A stretch of DNA of 64,000 nt from Kyrpidia tusciae DSM 2912 (GCF_000092905.1 NC_014098.1:1116001-1180000), one strand, 5' to 3'. Positions 48,520-61,539 are shown, numbered from the stretch's first letter. A program made the numbers and translations. The notes: generated by a model not told the origin, from the sequence alone.

Positions 48520-48843
48520 TTAATGCCTCTTGTAGACGCATTTTCCCGTCCGCCGTATTTCCGCGCCCAAAATCTCGGTCTCGAAGTCCTCGCGAGTAAA
48601 CCCGTGGATTTGAATCGGCGCCTCGATGTCCCACACGGCTTTGGCTAGGGCACTCACGGCGGCCGGGTAGTCTTCCGCGAAACGCGGCGACACGACGGCT
48701 AGATCGATGTCGCTGTTTTCGTGCGGCGTGCCGTTCGCGTACGAACCGAACAGCCAAACCTCTTCGATGTCCGGCGCGGACGGCAGGGTTTTCTCCAAGT
48801 ACTCTTGAACAGCCTGGTTCACTTGATCCGCTGTGTACACCAT
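48520..48843 (-). CDS. MNT-type nucleotidyltransferase, third gene of the XRE-HEPN-MNT operon
   Basis: 107 residues. EEVWLFGSYANGTPHENSDIDLAVV gives GS-x9-10-DxD of the minimal nucleotidyltransferase fold. It overlaps the HEPN gene by 25 bp. In characterised MNT/HEPN pairs this enzyme AMPylates and silences the HEPN RNase. It is unlike the first NTase at 4110, so the two pairs are separate acquisitions. Confidence 0.85.
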   Translation of the reverse strand: MVYTADQVNQAVQEYLEKTLPSAPDIEEVWLFGSYANGTPHENSDIDLAVVSPRFAEDYPAAVSALAKAVWDIEAPIQIHGFTREDFETEILGAEIRRTGKCVYKRH

Positions 48844-49334
48844 TGGATAAACCCACTCGCTTTCTCCAGGATTTCTTCAAAACGGGAATCGGGTGTTCGG
48901 GCAAGGATTTTCGCCCGTTCCGCCGGATACCTTCCTTCGATTTCATACACGTTGAGCATGAGCAGAAATTCTCGCTGATCTTGAGTCGTATGTAGTCCTG
49001 CGCGTTTAGCCAACTCCACGAGATTGTGGATCTTTGGAGGCACTTCATGGGTGTTCTGCGCGACGAGAGACTTTATGGCCTTTTCAACGGCCAAGTGTGC
49101 AAAGAAAGCGGATTCTAGTTTTCGCTTTCCAGCGCGTTTTAGGAAATACGCGGTCGAAATGTCTTCATACGCTTCCTGGATCCAATATCGAACATCTTTA
49201 CGGGCGATTTGAGAAATGTCCTTGTACGGAATGTGCTTGGCGCACGTGGGACCTACGCCACGGTCAATGCTTTCTTTTGAACGCAAAGGCTTACGGCATA
49301 CCCGGCACCGAATCGGTTTGTCCATTTTCATCAT
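48819..49334 (-). CDS. HEPN protein with N-terminal DUF6011-like zinc finger
   Basis: 171 residues. An N-terminal treble-Cys segment (CRVCRKPLRSKESIDRGVGPTC, read here as two CxxC-like groups at about 10-13 and 31) precedes a HEPN domain: WIQEAYEDISTAYFLKRAG, AHLAVEKAIKSLVAQ and PPKIHNLVELAKRAG. The zinc finger is normally found alone or on phage and mobile-element proteins; its fusion to HEPN is unusual and might target RNA or DNA. The gene overlaps xre by 44 bp and MNT by 25 bp, giving tight coupling. Confidence 0.82.
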   Translation of the reverse strand: MMKMDKPIRCRVCRKPLRSKESIDRGVGPTCAKHIPYKDISQIARKDVRYWIQEAYEDISTAYFLKRAGKRKLESAFFAHLAVEKAIKSLVAQNTHEVPPKIHNLVELAKRAGLHTTQDQREFLLMLNVYEIEGRYPAERAKILARTPDSRFEEILEKASGFIQWCTQRIK

Positions 49335-52808: not shown

Positions 52809-53198
52809 TCAGAATGGCCGTGACACCTCGTTCAACGCGCTTCTTCCACGTTCCACGATGTCCGATCGCAACGGAGCCAATTTTTGCGCCACTGTGTCGA
52901 TGTCTGCTTCCACCACTCCGTGTTCCCTTAGAGAATCGATCAACAATTCCACTATCGCCTCGAAATGTTCGTTCTGAATACCGAGTCCCTCATGCGCCTT
53001 TCGCATGCTCCGGCCGGTGTACTCCGGACCTCCCGCGGCGAACGAGATGAACAGCGTCTGATGTCGGCGCTGTTTTTCCATGTCTGTGTTGGCAAAGAAG
53101 TGGCGGACGCGGGGATCGGCCAAGACTTTGTCGTAAAAGGTATCGACGACCTTTCCAATCCCTTCTTTTCCCCCGAGGCGTTCGTACAACGTCGACAT
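52809..53198 (-). CDS. Truncated haemoglobin (group I-like)
   Basis: 129 residues. MSTLYERLGGKEGIGKVVD, VRHFFANTDMEKQRRHQ, FAAGGPEYTGRSMRKAHEGL with the proximal His. The family binds O2 and NO and often detoxifies NO. It is the last gene of nirB-nirD-trHb, which fits removal of NO formed from nitrite. ATG 53198 follows GGGAGGACA. Confidence 0.87.
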   Translation of the reverse strand: MSTLYERLGGKEGIGKVVDTFYDKVLADPRVRHFFANTDMEKQRRHQTLFISFAAGGPEYTGRSMRKAHEGLGIQNEHFEAIVELLIDSLREHGVVEADIDTVAQKLAPLRSDIVERGRSALNEVSRPF

Positions 53199-53243
53199 GT
53201 TCCATGTCCTCCCTCTCAATCTTGTTTGGATTCGATCATCCGA

Positions 53244-53582
53244 TCAGCCCGAGGAGACCGGCATCTCTTCGGACAGAACGAGAAAGACTTGGTCCCCTTC
53301 CACCATCACCGGGAAGGTACGGACACAACCTTCATCCGGGGGTTCGGCACGACCGGTGGCGAGGTTGATTTTCCAGTCGTGAAACGGACAGAAAACGGAC
53401 GTTCCACAAACGATCCCTTCGGCCAGCGGCCCCCCTTTGTGGGGACAGCGGTTTTCCACCGCGTAGACGTCCCCCGACGGGAGCCGGAACAGCGCCACTT
53501 CCAGCTCTCCCAGCCGGACCATCTGTCCCAGTTGAACCGGCAAGTCAGACACACGGGCTACCGAGACTTTTTTCATCGCCAT
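53244..53582 (-). CDS. nirD: Nitrite reductase small subunit (NirD/NasE, Rieske)
   Basis: 112 residues. Rieske 2Fe-2S ligands are in NRCPHKGGPLAEG and VFCPFHDWKI (C-x-H ... C-x2-H). It works with NirB to reduce nitrite to ammonium with NADH. Start 53582 follows GGGAGGAAAAT; the longer frame lacks a site. It lies 45 bp from nirB. Confidence 0.9.
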   Translation of the reverse strand: MAMKKVSVARVSDLPVQLGQMVRLGELEVALFRLPSGDVYAVENRCPHKGGPLAEGIVCGTSVFCPFHDWKINLATGRAEPPDEGCVRTFPVMVEGDQVFLVLSEEMPVSSG

Positions 53583-53627
53583 ATTTTCCTCCCTCATACC
53601 TGCGTTGTGACCACAAGCAGCACGCAA

Positions 53628-56048: not shown

Positions 56049-56221
56049 GTCGTTCATCCTCCCTTTGAGCAAACGTCCGCATGCGGGCGCGGCGAAGGAG
56101 CTGTCGCAACTTACTGAACGCAGGCGTGAACATGGCAGAACGGCAAAAAGAGACAAAGCCTCACCGATGGAGGCTTCTTTGCCAAATGAACGTCTCCGTT
56201 GACGTTTGCCTGTCGTGTTAT

Positions 56222-56250
56222 ATTATATAATCTGTTATGTTTAATGACAA
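56222..56250 (-). promoter_or_regulatory. nirB promoter overlapped by a GlnR/TnrA-type site
   Basis: Minus strand: TTGTCA (56250-56245), 17 bp, TATAAT (56227-56222). TGTCATTAAACATAACA (56249-56233) fits TGTNA-N7-TNACA of GlnR/TnrA exactly. It covers the -35 box and most of the spacer, a position typical of repression. Confidence 0.65.
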
Positions 56251-56344
56251 TACCGTTCCTTGCTATTTTACTTGTAATGATATTGACCAATATACGATAG
56301 GTTTATTATCATTAATGACGAAGCTGTAAGGAACAACTTCTGGG

Positions 56345-56408
56345 TGGCGGTCAATGGGGACCGCTAGTTGGCAATGAGGCCTCTGTCTGCATGGCGGAGG
56401 CCTTTTTT
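56345..56408 (+). promoter_or_regulatory. ANTAR-type antitermination leader with two AxxGxx hexaloop hairpins and a terminator
   Basis: Hairpin P1: TGGCGGTC (56345-56352) with GACCGCTA (56359-56366), loop AATGGG. Hairpin P2: GGC (56370-56372) with GCC (56379-56381), loop AATGAG. Both six-base loops have A at position 1 and G at position 4, the hallmark of RNAs bound by ANTAR proteins. An intrinsic terminator follows (56377-56387 with 56393-56403, then T6 to 56408), and its 5' arm overlaps P2, so the two exclude each other. The nasC start is 21 bp beyond. Confidence 0.75.
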
Positions 56409-56428
56409 CGGGAAGGGAGTGGAGTGCA

Positions 56429-58594
56429 ATGGAGGGCGACTCCGGGGTTCGCAGTCATTGTTGTTTTTGCAGTATGCAGTGTGCCGTCCGACTGGAGGCG
56501 AAGCCGTCGGGGGAGGGGCTGGACCTCAGGCCGGACCCGGGTTTTCCGGTGGCCGGAGGAAGACTGTGCCAGAAAGGGTTTCACGCCCATCTTCATGTGA
56601 GCCATCCCGAGCGCTTGACGACGCCGTTGGTGCGCCGCCGGGGCGGTTTCGCAGCTGTCAGTTGGGCGCAGGCGCTGGAGGAAGCGGCCGCGCGCCTGCA
56701 GTCCATCCAAGGGCGGTACGGAGCCGGGGCCGTGGGCGTGTTCGGCGGCGGTTCCTTGACCAATGAAACCGCGTACTTGTTAGGAAAGTTTGCGCGAGTT
56801 GCCCTTCGAACCCCGTTCATCGATTACAACGGACGCTATTGCATGTCTTCGGCGGCTGCGGCCATGAACCGCTCCTTCGGCTTGGATCGCGGGCTCACCA
56901 ATCCCCTGGACGATATCCCGGCCGCAGACATCATTTTGCTGGTCGGAGCCAATGTGGCGGAATGCCAGCCCACGATGATGTCCTATTTTCGCCGCGCGCA
57001 AAAAAGAGGGGGACGGCTGGTGGTCATCGACCCGCGGGAGACGGCGACGGCCCGGGTGGCCGATGTGCATCTCCGGATTCGTCCCGGCACCGACTGGATT
57101 TTGATGAACGGCCTTCTGCGGGCGATGATCGCCGAAGGTTGGATCGACGAGGATTTCATCGCCCGCCGCACTTCTGGTTTTGAAGCGGTGCGGGAAGCGG
57201 CGGCGCCTTACACTCCGGAAAGGGTGGAGGCGAGGACGGGGGTCCCGGCCGGCGTGGTCGTCGATCTGGCCCGGCAATTCTCCCTGGCGCCCCGGGGAAT
57301 GATCTTCACGGCCCGGGGCGTCGAGCAACAGGTCCGCGGTGTCGACAATGTGCAGGCGTGCATCAACCTCATCTTGGCGACCGGAAAGATCGGGCGGCCC
57401 GGCTGCGGGTTTGGCGCGATCACCGGCCAGGGGAACGGACAGGGGGGGCGGGAGCACGGGCAAAAAGCCGATCAGCTTCCGGGGTATCGGTCGATTGAAG
57501 ATCCCGCCGCCCGTCGGCACGTGGCCCGGGTGTGGGGCGTGGATGAAAGGGATTTGCCGGGCCCGGGAACGTCCGCTTTTGAAATGTTTCAGCAGATGAC
57601 GGCCGGGCGCATCCGCGGCCTGTTGATCCTGGGATCCAATCCCGTGGCGTCAAGCCCGCATCGCTCGTTGGTCCGCCGAGCTCTCGCCTCCCTGGATACG
57701 CTGGTGGTCATCGACATTCTTCCTTCGGAGACGGCGCGGATGGCGGATATCCTCCTTCCGGGGAGCGCTTGGACGGAACAGGAAGGAACCACGACCAATC
57801 TGGAAGGGCGCGTGATCCTGCGCAGGCAGGCGACCTCTCCGCCCGGGCGGGCGCGGCTGGACTGGAGGATCCTGTGCGATCTGGCGGCAGCCCTCGGGAA
57901 GGGACGGCACTTTTCCTATTCCTGTGCGGAAGAGATCTTCCACGAGTTGCGCCGGGCGAGCGCCGGGGGAGAGGCGGATTATTTCGGGATCACCTATGAA
58001 CGGATCGAACGGGAAAATGGAGTGTTCTGGCCCTGTCCGGACCTGGACCGGCCCGGGCAAGCCCGGCTCTTTGCCGACCGTTTCGCTCATCCGGACGGCA
58101 GGGCCCGGTTCTTCCCCGTTTCGGAGGAGGGACGGCGACCGGAACAACCCGACATGGAATATCCCTTTTACTTGACCACGGGACGGGTGGTGGATCATTA
58201 CCTCACGGGCACCCAGACGCGGAGGACGGAGCGGCTCGTGCGGCGGACTCCCGGTCCGTATGTGGAAATCCACCCGGAAACAGCGGCGGCGTTCGGGATT
58301 GGCGACGGAGAACGGGTGCGGCTGCGGACGCGGAGGGGAAAGGCGGAGTATCCGGCGAAGGTCACCGACCGGATCCGCCCGGACACCTTGTTTGTACCCT
58401 GCCACTGGGAAGGGGACGAGTGTGTCAATCAATTGACGGACGACCGTCTTGATCCCATATCTCGGATGCCTTCGTTCAAATGCTGTGCCGCGGCGTTGGA
58501 GAAGGTCGGGGCGGAACATACGACATCGAAGGGAGAGGATGTCCATGCGTTTTCAGGACTTCGCGAAGAGCGGTCATCTGCCCACTCTGTTTAG
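56429..58594 (+). CDS. nasC: Assimilatory nitrate reductase catalytic subunit (NasC/NasA type)
   Basis: 721 residues. An N-terminal 4Fe-4S site (CCFCSMQCAV with GGRLCQKG) is followed by molybdopterin domains of the DMSO reductase family (IDYNGRYCMSSAAAA, GRPGCGFGAITGQGNGQGG) and a C-terminal dinucleotide-binding domain (LTTGRVVDHYLTGTQTRR). It reduces nitrate to nitrite in the cytoplasm. No NasB-type FAD subunit is adjacent. Its 3' end overlaps the transporter by 50 bp. Control: ANTAR leader 21 bp upstream. Confidence 0.9.
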   Translation: MEGDSGVRSHCCFCSMQCAVRLEAKPSGEGLDLRPDPGFPVAGGRLCQKGFHAHLHVSHPERLTTPLVRRRGGFAAVSWAQALEEAAARLQSIQGRYGAGAVGVFGGGSLTNETAYLLGKFARVALRTPFIDYNGRYCMSSAAAAMNRSFGLDRGLTNPLDDIPAADIILLVGANVAECQPTMMSYFRRAQKRGGRLVVIDPRETATARVADVHLRIRPGTDWILMNGLLRAMIAEGWIDEDFIARRTSGFEAVREAAAPYTPERVEARTGVPAGVVVDLARQFSLAPRGMIFTARGVEQQVRGVDNVQACINLILATGKIGRPGCGFGAITGQGNGQGGREHGQKADQLPGYRSIEDPAARRHVARVWGVDERDLPGPGTSAFEMFQQMTAGRIRGLLILGSNPVASSPHRSLVRRALASLDTLVVIDILPSETARMADILLPGSAWTEQEGTTTNLEGRVILRRQATSPPGRARLDWRILCDLAAALGKGRHFSYSCAEEIFHELRRASAGGEADYFGITYERIERENGVFWPCPDLDRPGQARLFADRFAHPDGRARFFPVSEEGRRPEQPDMEYPFYLTTGRVVDHYLTGTQTRRTERLVRRTPGPYVEIHPETAAAFGIGDGERVRLRTRRGKAEYPAKVTDRIRPDTLFVPCHWEGDECVNQLTDDRLDPISRMPSFKCCAAALEKVGAEHTTSKGEDVHAFSGLREERSSAHSV

Positions 58595-59747
58595 TTCTTT
58601 TCTGTATTTCGACGCGAGCTTTATGATTTGGGTGCTCCTCGGAGCCCTGGGGACGTTCGTGGCCAGCGATTTTCAGCTGACACCCGGACAGAAGGGACTG
58701 CTGGTCGCTGTTCCGACGCTGGCCGGCAGTGGGTTTCGGATCATTCTCGGCTGGGCGGAGACGAAATTTGGCGGGAAACGAACGGCTTTAGCGGGGATTG
58801 TGGTGTCCATGATTCCTCTCCTGTGGGGATGGTTGTCTGCCGGTCAAGTATGGGAATTGTACGCAGTCGGCATTTTGCTCGGCGTTGCCGGCGCCAGCTT
58901 TGCGGTGGCCCTGCCCATGGCGAGCCGCTGGTTTCCACCCCAGTATCAAGGGTTGGTGATGGGCATCGCCGGGGCCGGCAACAGCGGCACTCTGCTCGCC
59001 ACCCTGTTTGGTCCGAGATTGGCCCAGAGTTTCGGTTGGCACGCGGTGTTCGGCTTCGCCGTGATTCCCATGATCGTGACGTTCTTTGTCGTGTTGGCCC
59101 TGGCGAAGGAGGCCTCCCGGCCGGGGGGTGCCGGCCTGGACAAGGGGATGTACCGGGCGGCGCTCAGGCGCCGGGACACGTGGGCGCTCTGTGCTCTATA
59201 CAGCCTGACCTTCGGCGGGTTTGTGGGTTTTTCGAATTACCTGGGTATTTTCTTTCATGACCAGTACGGCGTGAGTAAAGTGGCGGCCGGGGAACTCCAA
59301 ACGCTCGTGGTGGCGGCGGGAAGCTTTCTCCGTCCCGTCGGGGGCTATATCGCCGATCGCATCGGGGGAACCCGATTTCTCATCGGGTTGTTCGCGGCAG
59401 GAACGATCTTGTGTTTTGTCGCGTCACAATTCTTGCCGCTGGCCTTTGAAGTGGCTGTGTTTTTCTTCCTAATGGGCTGTCTGGGAATGGGAAACGGTGC
59501 GGTGTTTCAGGTTGTGCCGGTCCGGATGAAAGAGCTGGTGGGGGTGGCCACTGGAATGATTGGCGCCGCGGGCGGTGTCGGCGGATTTCTGCTGCCTTCG
59601 ATTCTCGGCGGCCTGAAGGGGGTGACGGGCACTTACGCGACAGGACTGACTGTTTTTGTCCTCGCTCTGGCCGTTGGAGCGGGAATGGCCGCGATTCTGC
59701 GAGTGCGGTGGCGGAAGTGGGGCCATTCCCTGCAACTGCAGATTTGA
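58545..59747 (+). CDS. Nitrate/nitrite transporter (MFS, NarK/NasA family)
   Basis: 400 residues, 12 hydrophobic helices. The nitrate signature regions are GIAGAGNSGTLLATLFGPRL in helix 5 and GAAGGVGGFLLPSILGG in helix 11. Start ATG 58545 follows GGGAGAGG; ATG 58539 is adjacent to that site. It imports nitrate for NasC and is coupled to it by overlap. Followed by a terminator. Confidence 0.9.
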   Translation: MRFQDFAKSGHLPTLFSSFLYFDASFMIWVLLGALGTFVASDFQLTPGQKGLLVAVPTLAGSGFRIILGWAETKFGGKRTALAGIVVSMIPLLWGWLSAGQVWELYAVGILLGVAGASFAVALPMASRWFPPQYQGLVMGIAGAGNSGTLLATLFGPRLAQSFGWHAVFGFAVIPMIVTFFVVLALAKEASRPGGAGLDKGMYRAALRRRDTWALCALYSLTFGGFVGFSNYLGIFFHDQYGVSKVAAGELQTLVVAAGSFLRPVGGYIADRIGGTRFLIGLFAAGTILCFVASQFLPLAFEVAVFFFLMGCLGMGNGAVFQVVPVRMKELVGVATGMIGAAGGVGGFLLPSILGGLKGVTGTYATGLTVFVLALAVGAGMAAILRVRWRKWGHSLQLQI

Positions 59748-59764
59748 TGATGAGGACAACCGGG

Positions 59765-59796
59765 GGGAGAAGAACGCCTTCTCCCTTTTCTTTTTT
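59765..59796 (+). terminator. Terminator after the nitrate transporter gene
   Basis: GGGAGAAG (59765-59772) with CTTCTCCC (59778-59785), loop 5, followed by a T-rich tract (TTTTCTTTTTT). Confidence 0.85.
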
Positions 59797-59806
59797 GTCC
59801 GATATA

Positions 59807-59835
59807 TTGACGTTATGAGTGATGTATTTTATCGT
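59807..59835 (+). promoter_or_regulatory. Promoter of the ANTAR regulator gene
   Basis: TTGACG (59807-59812), 17 bp, TATCGT (59830-59835). It lies between the terminator and the ANTAR gene, so the regulator can be made independently of its target operon. Confidence 0.5.
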
Positions 59836-59899
59836 AAGTATCAACAAAACATCAAAAACCAGTCCGGGAAAAGCGGCGGTCTTCCGGGAGCTGAAAGGA

Positions 59900-60493
59900 A
59901 TGAGGCGCGTGGTCGAACGGAGTTCGACATGTGTCGGTCGTCTGGCTGTGGCGGGGGACGAGAAGCGCGTGAACCGGGTGGCCCGGTGGCTGGCACGGTG
60001 CGGATATGCCGTCGTTGTTGGTGTTCTCCCTTCGGACGGGATGGATGCCTTGGTGTGGGTTTGTTCAGGCCGGCCGGATGGAAATTCGGACGGAGAAAAG
60101 AAAGCTGAGTGGGCCCCCTGTGTACCCCTTCTGTTGGTGCCCTGCGGGGAAGCGTGCCTTTCTCACCTTCCTCCCTGCGCGGTCGACGGCATCCTCGAAG
60201 TCGGCGGCACACCTGTTGGAGTGTCGTTAATTTTGGAGCTGGCGAAGCGGCATTTTTCGCTGAAAGGAAAACAACGGGAATCGGCCGATCCGGTGATCCG
60301 GAAGAGTTTGGACAAACAAGTCGTCGACCAAGCGAAAAGGCGGATCATGGCTCGGTTCGGATTCGAAGAGCCTGAGGCGTACAGAATCTTGAGAACGGAG
60401 GCCATGCGCCAGAGAAAGACCATTGCCGACATCGCCCGGGCGGTTCTCGATGCCGGGCTGGATATTTCCGTACATGGAGGTGAAATTCCGTGA
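59900..60493 (+). CDS. ANTAR-domain antiterminator with degenerate receiver domain
   Basis: 197 residues. The C-terminal 60 carry an ANTAR RNA-binding domain: DQAKRRIMARFGFEEPEAYR then ILRTEAMRQRKTIADIARAV. The N-terminal part follows a receiver fold (RLAVAGDEKRVNRVARWL, DALVWVCSGRPDG, AVDGILEVGGTPVGVSLILE), but the phospho-accepting Asp and the conserved Lys are absent, so it is probably not phosphorylated. It is close in layout to NasT. The likely target is the hairpin leader of nasC. ATG 59900 is preferred because the longer frame from 59819 runs through the promoter. It overlaps the next gene by 4 bp. Confidence 0.82.
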   Translation: MRRVVERSSTCVGRLAVAGDEKRVNRVARWLARCGYAVVVGVLPSDGMDALVWVCSGRPDGNSDGEKKAEWAPCVPLLLVPCGEACLSHLPPCAVDGILEVGGTPVGVSLILELAKRHFSLKGKQRESADPVIRKSLDKQVVDQAKRRIMARFGFEEPEAYRILRTEAMRQRKTIADIARAVLDAGLDISVHGGEIP

Positions 60494-61539
60494 CGGAGAC
60501 ATGGAGTATCCATGAATTGATTCACAAGGTGGGACGAGGGGGGAGAGGCGCCCGGGATCTCACCCGGGACGAAGCTCGTCATATGGCGGAGCGGATGTAT
60601 CGCCGGGACCTGACCGACGCCCAACTCGGGGCTTTTCTGCTGGCGGAGCGGATGAAGGGGGAGACGGCGGAGGAAGTGCACGCGTTCATCGAGACTTGGC
60701 GTGCGCACGCGCCCTCGTGGCCCGCGCATCTTCTCCCGGAAGCCCTGGACGTCGCCGGGGGATACGACGGCCGCACAAAGACCTTTTGCGCTTCCGTGGC
60801 GGCGGCGGTTCTCGCCGCGGATCTGGGCGTGAAGCAGTTCCTCCACGGATCCCTGCCACTGCCTCCCAAATACGGACTGACCGTCGGTGAAGTGCTGAGC
60901 GCTTTGCGGGTTTCGGCCGTCAGGGCGGAGAGCCATGCAGATCGCCATGTGCGGGTCGGCATCGTGTTTCTGGACACGGAGAGTTGGCTTTCCCCGTTGG
61001 CGGAACTGCGATCGGTTCGGGAACAACTCGGTCTGCGCACATTCATCCACAGCGTCGAGAAGTTGATCAATCCCGGACGCTCAGAGTACCGGATCGTGGG
61101 GGCCTTTCACAGACCTGCGTTCGAACGGTACGCCGCCGTGTGTGAGTTGGATGGAGTTCGAAGGTGCGTCCTGATTCAAGGGGTGGAGGGTTCAGAAGAT
61201 CCTTATCCCAACCGGGCGACTTCGGTCTATGTGTTCGACGGACATCGATGGAACATAGAGGCCTTCGATCCCCGGCCCTACGGCCTTGAAGCGGATCCAA
61301 CTTGTCCGCCTGACGCCGACCTGCAGGCGCGGTATACCGAATCGGTGTTGGCGGGGGAAAAGAGTTCCTATGCGCGATGGGCGGTGTGGAGCGCCGCAGT
61401 ACGGCTGTTTGCCCGGGGCGCTGCGGTGTCCTTGGACGAGGCGGTGGAACGGGTGCGCGACCATTGGCGCACCGGCCGGGCGGAAGGAAGATTGAAGCAG
61501 TGGCAACATTCGGAGTGGCTGGCTCCGCATGCGGGATAA
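60490..61539 (+). CDS. TrpD2-like protein (YbiB-type, anthranilate phosphoribosyltransferase fold)
   Basis: 349 residues. DLTRDEARHMAERMYRRDLTD, GAFLLAERMKGETAEEVHAF and GYDGRTKTFCASVAAAVLAA match the TrpD2/YbiB branch, which has the TrpD fold but lacks the GTGGD motif for PRPP. E. coli YbiB binds nucleic acid without sequence preference. It is coupled to the ANTAR gene (GTGA overlap, GGAGGTG upstream). Link to nitrogen control is only by position. Confidence 0.8.
   Translation: MTETWSIHELIHKVGRGGRGARDLTRDEARHMAERMYRRDLTDAQLGAFLLAERMKGETAEEVHAFIETWRAHAPSWPAHLLPEALDVAGGYDGRTKTFCASVAAAVLAADLGVKQFLHGSLPLPPKYGLTVGEVLSALRVSAVRAESHADRHVRVGIVFLDTESWLSPLAELRSVREQLGLRTFIHSVEKLINPGRSEYRIVGAFHRPAFERYAAVCELDGVRRCVLIQGVEGSEDPYPNRATSVYVFDGHRWNIEAFDPRPYGLEADPTCPPDADLQARYTESVLAGEKSSYARWAVWSAAVRLFARGAAVSLDEAVERVRDHWRTGRAEGRLKQWQHSEWLAPHAG

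Follow-up and report, generated by a model that had tools for sequence, protein, structure and literature searches.

The nitrate assimilation locus and its two leaders

The stretch of DNA analysed here (the window) comprises 64,000 nt of the genome of Kyrpidia tusciae DSM 2912, a hot-spring bacterium (NC_014098.1:1116001-1180000); positions are counted from its first nucleotide. It carries two divergent nitrate assimilation operons, nasC-narK and nirBD, on either side of a 380-nt gap, and a gene for a protein with an ANTAR domain downstream of narK. In the gap each operon is preceded by a leader in which two hexaloop hairpins, P1 and P2, are followed by an intrinsic terminator overlapping P2. 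We regard it as highly probable that these elements form an ANTAR antitermination circuit with two targets, a single ANTAR protein serving both operons. The operons and their leaders are made up as follows:

56283..56312, plus strand, sigma-A-like promoter of nasC, TTGACC-18-TATCAT (consensus scan)
56345..56366, plus strand, nasC leader P1, 8 bp stem, hexaloop AATGGG (A1, G4)
56370..56381, plus strand, nasC leader P2, GGC-AATGAG-GCC (loop A1, G4)
56376..56408, plus strand, nasC leader intrinsic terminator, 12 bp stem, 5-nt loop, T6, 5' arm overlapping P2
56429..58594, plus strand, nasC-like gene, assimilatory nitrate reductase catalytic subunit, best match the NasC model (976 bits, below its cut-off of 1100)
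58539..59747, plus strand, NarK-type nitrate/nitrite transporter of the major facilitator superfamily (271 bits, below the cut-off of 311.7)
56222..56250, minus strand, sigma-A-like promoter of nirB, TTGTCA-17-TATAAT, 11/12 consensus match
56189..56206, minus strand, nirB leader P1, 6 bp stem, AACGTC-AACGGA-GACGTT, hexaloop AACGGA
56172..56183, minus strand, nirB leader P2, GGC-AAAGAA-GCC
56145..56177, minus strand, nirB leader intrinsic terminator, AAGCCTC...GAGGCTT, broken T-tract, overlapping P2
53628..56048, minus strand, nirB, nitrite reductase large subunit (TIGR02374, 1053 bits, over the cut-off)
53244..53627, minus strand, nirD, nitrite reductase small subunit

Because the matches of NasC and NarK both stay below the curated name cut-offs, these two names rest on context and best match.

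An earlier sequence-only reading had described the nasC leader as two hairpins in the order P1-P2 with the loops AATGGG and AATGAG, and folding and a descriptor scan returned exactly these hairpins. The overlap of P2 with the 5' arm of the terminator described at the same time also stands, while the distance from the terminator end to the nasC start codon (ATG at 56429) is 20 nt and not 21 bp. The terminator stem (56376-56387/56393-56404, T-run 56403-56408) takes up three P2 loop bases and the entire P2 3' arm, so that P2 and terminator are mutually exclusive. As the calculated energy of the terminator is -21.8 kcal/mol and that of P2 about -3.9 kcal/mol (P1: -13.1 kcal/mol), P2 cannot win unaided and needs a protein. 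From position 56335 the leader folds 4.4 standard deviations below its shuffles, and 33 bp separate the promoter-like site from P1.

A scan of both strands yielded a second P1-P2-terminator leader on the minus strand (56206-56145), ahead of the divergent nirBD operon, with P1 beginning about 16 nt past the nirB promoter. In both leaders the two hairpins have stems of at least 3 bp and 6-nt loops with A at position 1 and G at position 4, and hence the nitrate reductase/transporter operon and the nitrite reductase operon carry the same switch. The self-contained nasC circuit proposed earlier thus holds as far as it goes and was incomplete: there are two leaders, the ANTAR gene is overlapped by a gene of the TrpD2 family, and the module recurs across Bacilli.

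The descriptor used for these scans allows long linkers and long terminators (a version with short terminator loops missed relatives). It matched twice in the 64 kb, both times inside the nirB-nasC gap, and never in 3000 dinucleotide shuffles of this gap. With a covariance model that had the two window leaders among its training sequences, they scored 38.2 and 36.4 bits in the K. tusciae genome, the next match reached 15.3 bits, and no third leader site was found. When Rfam was searched with the leaders, no family reached its gathering score and no ANTAR-like family appeared up to E 5; PyrR, Thr leader and other low matches were rejected as chance level.

Recurrence of the leaders in related Bacilli

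ANTAR genes were searched for in 151 and then in 399 Bacilli genomes. A nas-type group was defined by a profile score of at least 140 bits, all other ANTAR proteins scoring about 120 bits or less, and most genes of this group adjoin nirB, narK or nasC. At loci with a nas-type ANTAR gene, 78 of 84 upstream regions of operon-leading nas genes contain P1, P2 and a terminator with A1/G4 loops. When the loop positions 1 and 4 were set to the 15 other base classes, 14 of these gave no match in the 84 regions and the last gave one; shuffles of related nas upstream regions gave none either (0/880). Descriptor matches in 1.54 Mb stand before nas genes in 96 of 103 cases, and three of the four named loci missed by the scanner (L233, L262, L263) were recovered by the covariance model. 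The motif was absent from 11 full nirB loci of ANTAR-negative Bacilli in the descriptor scan, and whole-genome model matches were obtained in 17 of 22 genomes with a nas-type ANTAR gene vs none of 9 controls.

The P1 stems of the related leaders differ widely in sequence, and 6 of 7 pairs change on both sides. Over the whole structure 98.6% of the alignment cells are paired, compared with 83.3% after shuffling and 30-46% with the partner slid by 1-3 columns; the 98.6% comes from an alignment fitted to the model, and unfitted alignments agree on the P1 covariation. The comparison of leaders that had been proposed as a check therefore speaks for P1 and gives no signal either way for P2. At the level of sequence, the covariation of P1 and the co-occurrence of the motif with nas-type ANTAR genes support the antitermination by an ANTAR protein proposed for nasC. 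The arrangement of ANTAR gene and leaders, nearly always with a second gene adjoining, is shared by dozens of Bacilli, the majority of them Paenibacillus.

Variation was noted among the related leaders. Four narK leaders (L191, L210, L200, L258; P. plantarum, P. oryzisoli, P. sedimenti and P. validus) appear to contain two P2-terminator modules in succession, spaced by about 100 nt, so that one transcript would pass two switches. At L038:10881-10990, L071:9376-9240, L152:5440 and L197 the distance between P1 and P2 is 54-64 nt, partly an apparent extra hairpin. A linker longer by 20 nt abolished EutV antitermination in vitro (PMC8934654), and with these long linkers either the insert folds compactly or the spacing rules differ. 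Other ANTAR genes adjoin glnA or amtB (L045, L046, L048, L041, L049, L157, L180), several of them without a canonical receiver, and at L045 a P2-like hexaloop merged with a terminator stands before glnA.

The ANTAR protein and what may control it

Downstream of narK, and in the intergenic gap, the window contains:

59762..59795, plus strand, intrinsic terminator after narK, setting the ANTAR unit apart
59807..59835, plus strand, weak promoter-like site before the ANTAR gene, TTGACG-17-TATCGT
59900..60493, plus strand, nas-type ANTAR antiterminator gene, degenerate (pseudo-) receiver and ANTAR domain
60490..61539, plus strand, TrpD2/YbiB-family gene, 4-nt overlap with the ANTAR stop codon
56233..56249, no strand assigned, GlnR/TnrA-type box TGTNAN7TNACA, overlapping the nirB promoter

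The ANTAR gene reported at 59900 is in place: it starts with ATG, its ANTAR domain is encoded at about 60314-60448 (Pfam PF03861, 53.1 bits vs a cut-off of 27.3), and no other gene of the K. tusciae genome reaches the ANTAR cut-off. Conserved surface alanine and aromatic residues are present (A145, A160, Y161, A168, A179). In an AlphaFold model built from 31 sequences (predicted local distance difference test score 86) a receiver-like domain is followed by a long helix and the ANTAR helix bundle. Its best structural matches, over 173-174 residues, are AmiR (1qo0; Z 12.4, 174 residues, root-mean-square deviation 5.1) and EutV (Z 12.1), with receiver-only structures well below at Z of about 9.5 or less. 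The residues of EutV that contact RNA include Arg142, Lys143, Lys147, Lys149, Glu160, Tyr164, Arg168, Arg175 and Arg177 (PMC8934654); Lys149, Glu160, Tyr164, Arg168 and Arg175 align with K146, E157, Y161, R165 and R172, and Arg142 with K139 of the K. tusciae protein.

The receiver has lost its phospho-Asp and Lys, just as the sequence-only reading had it, both columns being occupied by V, and the DxxMP signature is missing in all 31 proteins of the set and present in 8 of 8 EutV-like ANTAR proteins from the same class. Since the receiver has lost these residues and the signature is gone throughout the clade, phosphorylation was rejected as the input, which supports the earlier suspicion on this point. 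Sensing of nitrate by a NIT domain was likewise rejected, ANTAR being the only domain matched in the protein.

From these features a course of events can be proposed. Transcripts of nasC-narK and nirBD would start near P1 and continue through P2 into the terminator that shares bases with P2. In the default state the terminator would win, judging by the energies, and transcription would end before the genes. By analogy with EutV, NasR and NasT, the active ANTAR protein would be recruited at P1, bind the A1/G4 hexaloops and keep P2 in place until the polymerase has cleared the U-tract, giving read-through and, presumably, a response to nitrate. The protein would be freed by a bound partner or ligand, not by phosphorylation; trpD2, which follows immediately downstream, is the one partner gene that is conserved. 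The GlnR/TnrA-type box at the promoter probably adds control by nitrogen status.

The TrpD2-family protein has YbiB structures (7y3p, 4muo, 8bfr) as its best PDB matches, ahead of any TrpD, and is assigned to this family and not to tryptophan synthesis. A second homologue in the genome (C1:1734656), 30% identical to it, is likely the true trpD. ANTAR and TrpD2-family genes are probably co-transcribed. A look-up with the K. tusciae ANTAR sequence in genome contigs returned no relatives, probably because the protein is too divergent, and a TrpD2 profile succeeded. It gave 80 TrpD2 loci from GTDB genomes, mostly Paenibacillus, plus Cohnella, Fontibacillus, Halalkalibacter and others. A nas-type ANTAR gene is present in 75 of them, 72 times as the gene just before TrpD2, at a distance of -4 to +44 nt; nas genes are found in 73 loci, 69 of which also have a leader, and none of the TrpD2 loci without ANTAR carries one. 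As these 80 loci had been chosen by TrpD2, the set of 151 Bacilli genomes is the less biased test: here TrpD2 occurs in 16 of 16 genomes with a nas-type ANTAR vs 12 of 135 others (relatives not being independent), and in 1 of 11 nirB-positive, ANTAR-negative genomes.

We tentatively propose, as a refinement of the two-target circuit, that TrpD2 holds the pseudo-receiver ANTAR protein inactive and releases it, or else activates it, on binding nitrate, nitrite or a nitrogen metabolite. With its YbiB-like phosphoribosyltransferase fold it might thus replace NasS or AmiC as the ligand-sensing partner, for which it is the leading candidate, though one we hold with some reserve as TrpD2 also occurs away from ANTAR. 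Besides the co-occurrence, two observations point this way: no third regulatory gene such as nasS or a kinase is conserved in the 75 loci, and the fold is nearest to AmiR, which is itself under the control of a bound protein. Against it, the co-occurrence is dominated by Paenibacillaceae and uncorrected for phylogeny, twelve genomes have TrpD2 without a nas-type ANTAR, and TrpD2 may act in another way, given the binding of nucleic acids and of ObgE by Escherichia coli YbiB (PMC10123104). If the proposal holds, it would add a third kind of ANTAR input and a NasS-free nitrate switch in Paenibacillus-type Bacilli, and would give the orphan TrpD2 family a function. Away from nas-type ANTAR genes, TrpD2 adjoins siroheme synthase genes in L183, L184 and L185, and nirBD-nasC in L187 (G022); it may act in nitrite/sulfite metabolism independently of ANTAR.

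A different view, which we consider unlikely, is that the ANTAR protein is constitutively active without an input of its own and that nitrogen control is exerted through GlnR/TnrA at the promoters. A single match to the GlnR/TnrA-type box in the window is not rare in itself. Of the 78 related leaders, 70 have such a box in the 150 nt before P1, where about 0.72 are expected from mononucleotide shuffling. GlnR was found to bind the nasA and nasD promoters of Paenibacillus polymyxa, at the nasA-nasD1 gap and at nasD2 (PMC9948412), and the main text of that study mentions neither ANTAR nor antitermination. Under constitutive activity the conserved terminators would be pointless, and the receiver-like domain has been kept and is predicted to be well folded. 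The pattern suggests that initiation responds to nitrogen status and termination to a second signal.

Still less probable is control of the ANTAR protein by a cytoplasmic NasS-like nitrate-binding protein encoded elsewhere, as in NasS-NasT. The K. tusciae genome has five matches to the NMT1_2 family, and NasT likewise works by release from a partner (PMC3795266); yet three of the five proteins read as lipoprotein-like exported binding proteins, no NMT1_2 match lies within the window and none is conserved beside ANTAR in the 75 loci. That the leaders work without ANTAR, as ordinary attenuators or as strong terminators, and that their hexaloops are incidental, is very improbable, for although the terminators fold unaided, the loop-class test (78 vs 0-1), the lack of the motif at ANTAR-negative nirB loci and the P1 covariation all argue against it.

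Several results weigh against the two-target antitermination circuit. At -10.8 kcal/mol and with a shuffle z of -1.4, the nirB terminator is a weak one. With a model trained without the window leaders (R2), the two leaders rank first and second across all window positions, but with the weak scores of 16.1 and 11.3 bits vs 9.1 for the next, and a quick genome-wide pass with R2 did not list them. P2 is invariant (GGC/GCC) in 37 distinct related leaders with no pair changing, which puts its pairing beyond the reach of covariation. EutV Lys143, Lys147 and Arg177 are without counterpart in the K. tusciae protein, which is only about 17-26% identical to other nas-type ANTAR proteins.

Known systems and neighbouring genes

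The mechanism is not new, since antitermination by ANTAR proteins at dual hexaloops is established (PMC3369931, PMC8934654), including for nas genes of Proteobacteria (PMC3795266). In NasS-NasT of Paracoccus, Azotobacter and Bradyrhizobium a receiver-like protein with an ANTAR domain acts on nas leader RNA and takes its input from a partner, not a kinase (PMC3795266); RNA binding and a partner are what we infer for K. tusciae as well. Unlike there, no nasS is conserved adjacently in the 75 related loci and the K. tusciae neighbours match no such family; a TrpD2-family gene stands in the place of nasS, the receiver signature is lost and two leaders share one divergent gap. NasR of Klebsiella likewise governs a nitrate assimilation operon through a leader (nasF) with two A1/G4 hexaloop hairpins overlapped by a terminator, but senses nitrate by its own NIT domain, for which the K. 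tusciae protein has no match. EutV of Enterococcus and other Firmicutes resembles it in fold, most RNA-contact residues and the order P1-P2-terminator; it differs in being phosphorylated by EutW, whereas the K. tusciae receiver lacks the phospho-Asp and Lys, has no linked kinase and serves other target genes. In AmiR-AmiC of Pseudomonas, the best structural match, a long helix joins the pseudo-receiver to ANTAR and a bound protein sets the activity, as presumably here; the genes concerned are for nitrate rather than amide, and no AmiC-like gene was seen adjacent, no search for AmiC having been made.

Among the ANTAR target RNAs predicted in the survey by Ramesh et al. (2012; PMC3369931) are some ahead of nitrate/nitrite transporter and nitrite reductase genes, and the regulons include Gram-positive ones, e.g. 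in Desulfotomaculum acetoxidans. The main text of this survey names neither Kyrpidia tusciae nor Paenibacillus, and its supplementary tables may list some of the leaders. Control of nas genes in P. polymyxa has been described through GlnR (PMC9948412). Supplementary tables aside, we found no description of the Bacilli nas module of pseudo-receiver ANTAR and TrpD2 in the open-access literature, nor one linking ANTAR with Paenibacillus, Kyrpidia with nitrate, or TrpD2 with nitrate. New are the twin divergent leaders, the conserved ANTAR-TrpD2 pair without linked NasS or kinase, and the GlnR/TnrA-type boxes before 70 of 78 leaders. A second, nitrate-gene-specific layer of control, whose RNA sites are defined across dozens of genomes, could be tested in tractable strains such as P. 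polymyxa, and the orphan TrpD2 family becomes linked to a regulator which, with its phosphorylation site gone, must take its input from elsewhere.

Two other Kyrpidia genomes yielded no nas cluster and, instead of NasC, only a 35% identical paralogue of it that K. tusciae has as well. In the Kyrpidia genome G001 (L056) an ANTAR protein with intact receiver signature occurs, with no close nasC homologue and no TrpD2. The nas-ANTAR-TrpD2 module seems to have been gained or lost within the genus.

Two further features of the window lie on the minus strand. A truncated bacterial globin gene (52809-53219) directly downstream of nirD is probably part of the same transcript and may handle nitric oxide arising from nitrite reduction. 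At 48520-49334 a HEPN-domain gene (Pfam) and a small open reading frame that is nucleotidyltransferase-like by sequence only resemble a HEPN-MNT toxin-antitoxin pair.

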